Shown here: in pieces, positions 54,857-57,203 of the stretch | Position numbering within the stretch: position 1 is the first letter of the stretch | How the letters are laid out: every line of letters begins with the position of its first letter | Origin: Planctomycetales bacterium 10988 | GTDB taxonomy: Bacteria > Planctomycetota > Planctomycetia > Pirellulales > Pb10988 | Length of the DNA: 64,000 bases | Direction of reading: 5' to 3' | NCBI GenBank assembly: GCA_009664345.1 | Contig: CP043547.1 | Coordinates: 1,178,001 to 1,242,000 of the forward strand | Notes under the pieces: generated by a model | What the model was told of the DNA's origin: nothing | What the model saw: the letters and a program-made list of their open reading frames with translations, nothing else | Database searches by the model: none | Translations under genes and position numbers: made by a program

Positions 54857-55840
54857 ATGATGTCTTCTTCAGAAACCGAAATCACTTCATTTCATCAACA
54901 ATGGACTCGCCCTCATCTGCTTGGTCTTGAAGAACTTTCGGCTGAGGAACTCACGCTGATTTTGAATCAAGCCGCTGAGTTGAAGCGGCAGACGAATCAG
55001 TGTAAGACCAAGATTTCCCTCCTCCAAGGCGTGACGATCGCCAATCTCTTCTTTGAAAATTCCACCAGAACGCGGACAAGTTTTTCGCTGGCTGCTCGAC
55101 GGCTGGGGGCGGATACCATCGATTTTTCCTCCTCTGGAAGCAGTCTTTCTAAAGGAGAAACCTTTATCGATACCGCCAAGAATATCGAAGCGATGGGGGT
55201 CGATCTGATCGTTGTCCGACATCGTTCACCCGGAGCCCCGCATCTCTTGGCTCAAAATGTTCGTTGTGGAATTCTCAATGCCGGCGATGGTCCTCATGAA
55301 CACCCCACGCAAGGGCTGCTGGATATCTTTTCCATTCGCGAACGACTGGGCCGCATCGAAGGGCTAACCGTGGCTTTAGTGGGAGATATTGCCTTTAGCC
55401 GCACTGCTCGTTCCAATATTTGGGGCTTGCAAAAACTGGGGGCACACGTGATTCTTTGCGGTCCGTCAACCTTGGTTTCTCGGGATTGGGAGAAAGTCGG
55501 CGTCGAAGTTTGCCATGACTTGGATTCGATTTTACATCGGGTCGATGTGTTGAATTTACTCAGGATTCAATTTGAACGTCAGGCCACTCGCCCTTTTCCT
55601 TCCGTGCATGAATACGCTTGGCTCTATGCGATGAATCGCCGAAGAATGGCCTTGGCAAAGCCGGATATTTTGATCATGGCACCTGGGCCCATTAACCGCG
55701 GGGTTGAGCTGACTCCCGATGTCGCGGATGGTTCGCATTCCATAATTCTCGATCAAGTGACCAACGGGGTGGCGGTTCGCATGGCAGCTCTATGGCTCAT
55801 TGCACAACGAAATCAAGAGCTTGTCCCCTCCCAAACCTAA
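54857..55840 (+). CDS. pyrB: Aspartate carbamoyltransferase catalytic subunit
   Basis: A 327-residue enzyme of pyrimidine synthesis that joins carbamoyl phosphate and aspartate. The carbamoyl-phosphate motif [12 protein letters not shown], the [12 protein letters not shown] block, and RIQFERQ are intact, as is the [11 protein letters not shown] aspartate loop; the Lys/Ser loop ([14 protein letters not shown]) is present. It is therefore expected to be active. The dihydroorotase-like gene starts 49 bases later and probably forms a complex with it. Confidence 0.95.
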
Positions 55841-55889
55841 GGCAACCCAGCGACATTCCTCCCACCATTTCAGGCAGAAAGTGGCACAG

Positions 55890-57203
55890 ATGGCAGATGT
55901 ACTCATTCGTGGCGGTCGCATTATCGATCCTGGTCGGGGCCTGGATGCTGTTTCCGATCTCTTGGTGCTCGATGGTAGAATCGCCGAACTCCGCCCTGAA
56001 ATAACCCTTCCCGAAAATTTTCGTAAGGTCATCGAGATTGATGCAACGGATAAGCTTGTCTCGCCGGGGTTTCTTGATCTCCATACCCATTTACGGGAGC
56101 CGGGTCGAGAAGAGGAAGAAACGATTGCCAGTGGAACGGCCGCCGCGCTCGCTGGTGGATTTACCTCCATTGTCTGTATGCCGGATACCGATCCCCCGAT
56201 TGACAGCCCTGCCGCGGTGGAATTCATTCGACTTCAAGCGGATCGAGCCAATCACTGCAATGTCCATGTCTTGGCCAATGTTAGCAAAGCCGGAAAGGGG
56301 GAAGAACTTGCGGAAATCGGCCAGCTTGTTGAAGCCGGGGCCGTGGGTTTCAGTGATGCCACGCAACCGATCCAAAACGCAAACCTCATGCGGCGAGCTT
56401 TAGAATATTGTTTGATGTTTGACCGGCCGATCTTCAATGTTCCCGATGTGCAAGAGCTAAGCGGCAGTGGAATTATGCACGAAGGAATGACATCAATGCT
56501 ACTCGGCTTGCCTGGAATTCCTGCCGCCGCCGAAACCGTCATGGTCGGCCGAGACATTATTCTAAGTGAACTCACTGGGGGAAAAATTCATCTGCAAAAT
56601 CTCTCCGTGGCGGAAAGTGTCGAATTACTGCGACGAGCAAAAAGTCGAAATGCCTTGGTTACCGCCGACATTTGCCCGCAACATTTCACATTAACGGATG
56701 AATCACTACGGAGCTTCGAATCCAATTTAAAAGTCCGTCCGCCTCTTCGCTCGGCGAATGACGTTACGGCTTGTATCGGAGGACTTCAAGATGGAACGAT
56801 CGACTGCATTGTGAGCGGCCATTCTCCGTTGGCAATCGAAAAGAAGATGCAAGAACTGGATCAAGCACCGTTCGGCATGGTCGGGTTGGAGACCGTCCTT
56901 CCTCTCGTCATCACAGAATTGATCCGACCCGGTCATCTTTCTTGGCTTGATGCCCTGGCGAAGTTGACGTGTAACCCCGCGAGGGTTCTCGGAAGTGACC
57001 GAGGTTCACTTGAACCAGGGGCCATCGCGGATATCACCATCGTTGATCCAGAAGCAGCTTGGCAAATCGACGCCGGTAACTTTGTTTCACTCAGCCGGAA
57101 TACCCCTTTTCATGGAAAAAGTGTTTACGGAAAAGTAGAAAAAGTCTTTGTCCAAGGGGAATTACGCTTCAATTCAACCGAGCGAAGAACCATGGATGTT
57201 TAA
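55890..57203 (+). CDS. Dihydroorotase-like subunit (PyrC' type), probably non-catalytic
   Basis: A 437-residue amidohydrolase-fold protein homologous to bacterial type I dihydroorotase. The HxH motif (DLHTHLREPG, His65 and His67) is kept, but other expected metal or catalytic residues have changed: the SDD motif is SDA (Asp156, Ala157), the His of HAED is Asn183, the His of AHVS is Asn237, and DHAPH is GHSPL (Gly310, Leu314). Such losses are known for the inactive pDHO subunits of class A aspartate transcarbamoylases, which help assemble PyrB. The start is ATG 55890; the frame continues upstream to 55800 within pyrB. If this is inactive, an active dihydroorotase must be encoded elsewhere. Confidence 0.8.
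   Translation: MADVLIRGGRIIDPGRGLDAVSDLLVLDGRIAELRPEITLPENFRKVIEIDATDKLVSPGFLDLHTHLREPGREEEETIASGTAAALAGGFTSIVCMPDTDPPIDSPAAVEFIRLQADRANHCNVHVLANVSKAGKGEELAEIGQLVEAGAVGFSDATQPIQNANLMRRALEYCLMFDRPIFNVPDVQELSGSGIMHEGMTSMLLGLPGIPAAAETVMVGRDIILSELTGGKIHLQNLSVAESVELLRRAKSRNALVTADICPQHFTLTDESLRSFESNLKVRPPLRSANDVTACIGGLQDGTIDCIVSGHSPLAIEKKMQELDQAPFGMVGLETVLPLVITELIRPGHLSWLDALAKLTCNPARVLGSDRGSLEPGAIADITIVDPEAAWQIDAGNFVSLSRNTPFHGKSVYGKVEKVFVQGELRFNSTERRTMDV

Follow-up and report, generated by a model that had tools for sequence, protein, structure and literature searches.

A probable dihydroorotase-like partner of aspartate transcarbamoylase with a degraded active site in a planctomycete

The pyrB locus and its adjoining gene

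The window (the whole 64,000-nucleotide stretch of the Planctomycetales bacterium 10988 chromosome analysed here) contains pyrB followed on the same strand by a gene for a homologue of type I dihydroorotase (DHO). The features of this locus are:

54857..55840, + strand: pyrB, aspartate transcarbamoylase (ATCase) catalytic chain, 327 residues, active-site motifs intact (NF002032, TIGR00670)
55841..55889, + strand: spacer of 49 bases between pyrB and the pseudo-DHO gene
55890..57203, + strand: pseudo-dihydroorotase (pseudo-DHO), 437 residues, type I DHO homologue (Aquifex DHO, E 6.7e-90)
56082..56096, + strand: codons of the HxHxR motif, His65-Thr-His67-Leu-Arg69, located by sequence and alignment

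With its stop codon, pyrB extends to 55840, and the 437-codon frame opens with an ATG at 55890 and ends at 57203. A first-pass annotation had placed the second gene here, 49 bases past an intact pyrB, and the frame, the spacing and the PyrB motifs agree with that description. The two genes are flanked by a GGDEF gene and a DUF1570 gene on the other strand. A promoter and terminator scan listed no promoter- or terminator-like site in the spacer.

The window PyrB scores above the cut-off for both NF002032 (376 bits) and TIGR00670 (302 bits) and retains the motifs STRTRT, SKGE, HPTQ, SRTARSN and LLRIQFERQ. These active-site motifs are conserved across 68 aligned PyrB sequences of the window genome's order. 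At PyrB residues 274–282 (window 55676–55702), the best PDB match, 6pnz, reads MHPAPVNRG, and sequences of the order have MAPGPINRG or LAPGPINRG; alanine replaces the histidine in 68 of the 68 aligned sequences.

The downstream protein is homologous to type I DHO over its full length (TIGR00857, 355 bits; cut-off 279), and among solved structures its closest match is the DHO subunit of the Aquifex ATCase–DHO complex. Given the similarity to 3d6n, the predicted fold is clear. Because this protein passes the TIGR00857 cut-off, naming pyrC genes by family score alone mislabels proteins of this kind. The pairing of pyrB with a full-length type I DHO homologue is also seen in most of the order.

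Loss of active-site residues

Residues are numbered here as in Aquifex DHO, for which the six metal ligands are H61, H63, D153, H180, H232 and D305. In the alignment to that enzyme, the window protein retains H61, H63 and R65 as His65, His67 and Arg69, and four of the six ligand positions have changed: D153 is Ala157, H180 is Val184, H232 is Asn237 and D305 is Gly310. Two substrate residues are also lost (N95 is Asp99 and H309 is Leu314), as is N278 (Arg283). Of the six ligands expected in an active type I DHO or class A1 subunit, H61 and H63 alone remain. Most relatives at 57–61% identity carry all of the lost residues, so the pattern of loss is not due to chance.

The first-pass annotation had reported a retained HxH and four substituted positions. 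The alignment bears out His65 and His67 as well as the losses at Asn237, Gly310 and Ala157; the fourth loss stands, but its position had been given as Asn183, and the equivalent of H180 is Val184 (PIMDHCED aligned with PIFNVPDV).

The lost positions differ in the weight they carry. Aquifex DHO holds a single zinc on His61, His63 and Asp153, with Asp305 the next closest residue, and its activity is unchanged when His180 and His232 are replaced by alanine (PMC3880350). The losses of D153 and D305 therefore speak more strongly for inactivity than those of H180 and H232. With the HxH pair and Arg69 kept, the pseudo-DHO may still bind metal or have a residual or different activity.

A second dihydroorotase in the genome

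A search of the rest of the genome found exactly one other type I DHO gene (P0003, G000:C1:227640-228839; also delimited as G000:C1:227589-228887), at about 227.6 kb of the chromosome, and it is nearly canonical. It belongs to the PRK07575 type (675 bits; cut-off 529), and its nearest PDB match is the Porphyromonas DHO 2gwn. The encoded protein carries R62, N92, K142, H174, H228, D298 and H302, a nearly complete active site whose sole deviation is Gln58 in place of the first histidine of HxH. Glutamine at this position is common to 37 of 41 same-type sequences in the order and to 2gwn. No type II DHO above its cut-off was found in the window genome. A separate DHO elsewhere in the genome, a feature of class A2 ATCases, is thus present by sequence.

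Intact and degraded orthologs among relatives

A contig search with the pseudo-DHO protein alone returned two alphaproteobacterial relatives only. Across the order, the ortholog was examined in 81 genomes, the window genome among them. The linked ortholog is intact in 30 of these (all six ligands together with R65, N95 and H309) and degraded to a varying degree in the other 51, three of them only marginally; the window genome belongs to the degraded set. A PRK07575-type DHO above cut-off occurs in none of the 30 intact genomes and in 44 of the 51 degraded ones, with a partial gene in two more. Four of the five degraded genomes that lack the gene are 62–83% complete, and the fifth (G133) is 96% complete. 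The presence of a PRK07575-type DHO thus goes with a degraded linked DHO, and the association is strong among genomes that are related and hence not independent. A phylogeny-aware pair test gave two starred independent pairs, both in the expected direction and too few for significance.

The degraded copies range from slight to extensive change. In G038 and G085 the sole difference is D153E, and G007 has all six ligands present but carries N95D and H309L. The residues that survive also differ between lineages. Family f21, from the same class and outside the order, retains D305 and, in most cases, H61 but lacks H63, whereas the window protein has both H61 and H63 and lacks D305; family f15 often retains H180. 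A PRK07575 gene is missing from 8 of 20 f21 genomes. Another DHO must therefore serve in these genomes and in G133, and, as f21 illustrates, the second DHO may belong to a type other than PRK07575. The f21 genomes with a degraded pyrB-linked DHO in which PRK07575 was not found are G432, G448, G513, G532, G537, G564, G545 and G572.

These comparisons bear on whether the window protein could still be an active DHO with an altered site, its metal held by the HxH pair and other ligands. The retained R65 equivalent and the tolerance of Aquifex DHO for the loss of H180 and H232 (PMC3880350) lend this some appeal. It is nevertheless highly improbable: D153, D305, N95 and H309 are all gone, the genome encodes a nearly canonical second enzyme, and in near-complete assemblies without a PRK07575 DHO the linked ortholog never shows these changes, G133 excepted.

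Constraint on degraded copies

Among 182 positions conserved in the intact orthologs, 75 are also conserved in the degraded ones, and the window pseudo-DHO retains 74 of these 75. Nineteen positions are lost in most degraded copies, and seven of them are catalytic (D153, H63, H232, D305, H309, H61 and H180). Estimates of dN/dS are about 0.03–0.14 among the listed close pairs of degraded genes, all from relatives, the window gene falling in no such pair. The degraded proteins are therefore maintained, and these ratios indicate that the degraded copies in relatives are under purifying selection.

Joint presence of the partner and PyrB

In 19 genomes (families f6, f11 and some of f15), no PyrB of the window type exceeds the TIGR00670 cut-off, and there is no close partner ortholog either. 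The same search found the partner in 11 of 11 genomes with this PyrB type, and no genome with this PyrB and without the partner was seen among those sampled. That the two genes occur together or are missing together is the best in silico evidence suggesting that the subunit serves PyrB. A PRK07575-type DHO is present in 10 of 10 of the 19 genomes that were checked.

The 19 genomes carry another ATCase-like open reading frame, mostly of about 400–480 codons and scoring about 200 bits on TIGR00670, below the cut-off; examples are G005:C1:1421977-1422996 and G103:C52:19759-20814. This alternative ATCase apparently replaced the whole ATCase–DHO pair. In family f9 (G008, G026, G041, G050 and G060), the degraded DHO gene and pyrB lie on different contigs, and both are kept.

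A dependence of PyrB on such a partner has a precedent in Pseudomonas aeruginosa, where PyrB without pDHO is monomeric and inactive and mixing the two yields a dodecamer (PMC7053772). It is very unlikely that the window subunit is an amidohydrolase that has acquired another substrate and is unconnected to PyrB assembly. Its HxH, its full-length fold and the purifying selection on degraded relatives would suit such an enzyme, but the residues retained vary by lineage, which is unexpected for a shared new chemistry, and the gene is missing in the 19 genomes that lack this PyrB type. That the gene is decaying toward loss beside a PyrB independent of it, as the lost catalytic residues and a duplicate function elsewhere might suggest, is scarcely credible given the open 437-codon frame with nearly all of the generally conserved positions, the low dN/dS among degraded relatives and the sampled genomes with this PyrB, none of which was seen to have lost the partner.

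Number and independence of losses

An AU test on an rpoB tree covering 60 genomes rejects the grouping of all genomes with a degraded DHO or no partner into one clade (p 0.0002). In a tree of DHO and PyrB, with f14 left out, intact orthologs from other parts of the phylum set the root, and the starred branches require three changes or more. The trees themselves thus show that the degraded state arose more than once. Losses alone were counted because regain of a whole active site is implausible; on the DHO and PyrB tree this gives six degraded groups, namely f21, the window genome (f1), f9, part of f3, f8 and f15. Family f14 falls among intact families in other trees, on branches left partly open. 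There were at least three losses in the class, and probably six or seven when loss is taken as irreversible.

The window genome takes different positions in different trees. On rpoB, grouping with f15 and grouping with f8 are both not rejected (p 0.34 each); in the concatenated tree it pairs weakly with a long f9 branch, and in the DHO and PyrB tree it is sister to the remainder of the order.

The first-pass annotation had taken the retained HxH as a possible sign of either an intermediate or an independent loss. The second alternative is supported by the intact orthologs within the order, by the rejection of a single origin on rpoB and by the other residues lost in other lineages. The first fits less well: besides two substrate residues, the window protein has lost D153, which binds the alpha zinc, and D305, the near ligand; G007 and G038 are better intermediates. 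A separate loss is the most likely meaning of the retained HxH. The intact orthologs and the rejected single origin also speak against common descent of the inactive state with that of Pseudomonas pDHO.

A proposed class A2-like assembly

We consider it very likely that pyrB and the DHO-like gene encode a class A2-like ATCase, composed of an active PyrB and an inactive pseudo-DHO scaffold, that DHO activity comes from the PRK07575-type enzyme, and that a former DHO of the class A1 kind was inactivated on this lineage. PyrB would be the catalytic chain, and the DHO-like chain, predicted to lack DHO activity, would hold PyrB trimers in a larger assembly, by analogy 6+6 as with Pseudomonas pDHO; PyrB would in turn depend on this chain. 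Dihydroorotate would be made by the separate, free PRK07575-type enzyme encoded at 227.6 kb. The first-pass annotation had likewise read the protein as an inactive subunit, a view that the lost ligands, the second DHO, the purifying selection in relatives and the joint absence of PyrB and partner all favour.

The ancestor of the subunit would be an active, Aquifex-like DHO of class A1. Catalysis by the subunit was probably lost on this lineage separately from the losses in other degraded lineages of the class, and we infer that the loss came once a second DHO had made the activity dispensable. Against this reading we count the retained HxH and Arg69, the unlinked genes in f9, and the missing PRK07575 gene in G133 and 8 of 20 f21 genomes.

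Viewed across planctomycetes, it is likely that an active DHO bound to ATCase becomes a pure scaffold repeatedly, as a nearly predictable outcome, once a second DHO is present, with at least three losses in the class (probably six or seven), surviving intermediates and different remaining residues in each. Pseudoenzyme subunits are usually known in their final state only; here, one order spans fully equipped to stripped forms, and the presence of a substitute enzyme accompanies the loss repeatedly in several lineages. The order of events from enzyme to scaffold is therefore testable, and the comparison reveals the residues that the scaffold role keeps.

Relationship to known ATCase–DHO systems

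A search of the literature turned up no publication on ATCase partners in planctomycetes, which is weak evidence of novelty as subscription journals fell mostly outside its coverage. Class A2 ATCase is a 6+6 dodecamer of about 480 kDa. The window pair most resembles the class A2 ATCase with pDHO of P. aeruginosa and its relatives, in which PyrB is likewise accompanied by a full-length, apparently inactive type I DHO homologue and DHO activity can be obtained from elsewhere (PMC7053772). The window protein appears to differ from Pseudomonas pDHO in retaining HxH, and the intact orthologs within the order indicate an independent origin. In two alphaproteobacterial homologues, L040 and L041, the HxH positions are occupied by Arg and Phe.

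The closest solved relative of the window subunit comes from the class A1 ATCase–DHO of Aquifex aeolicus (PDB 3d6n, 4bjh), from which the window protein differs by the absence of four metal ligands and two substrate residues. Many intact orthologs in the order keep all of the Aquifex catalytic residues and would be class A1-like. The PRK07575/PRK09236-type DHO of Porphyromonas gingivalis (2gwn) is of the same type as the second DHO of the window genome; unlike the pseudo-DHO, it is not the PyrB partner, and it retains the lysine and, apart from Gln in place of the first His, the remaining catalytic residues. The CAD-like Ura2 of fungi also retains an inactive DHO within an ATCase protein (PMC7053772), as a fused domain of a multifunctional polypeptide there and as a separate subunit in the window.
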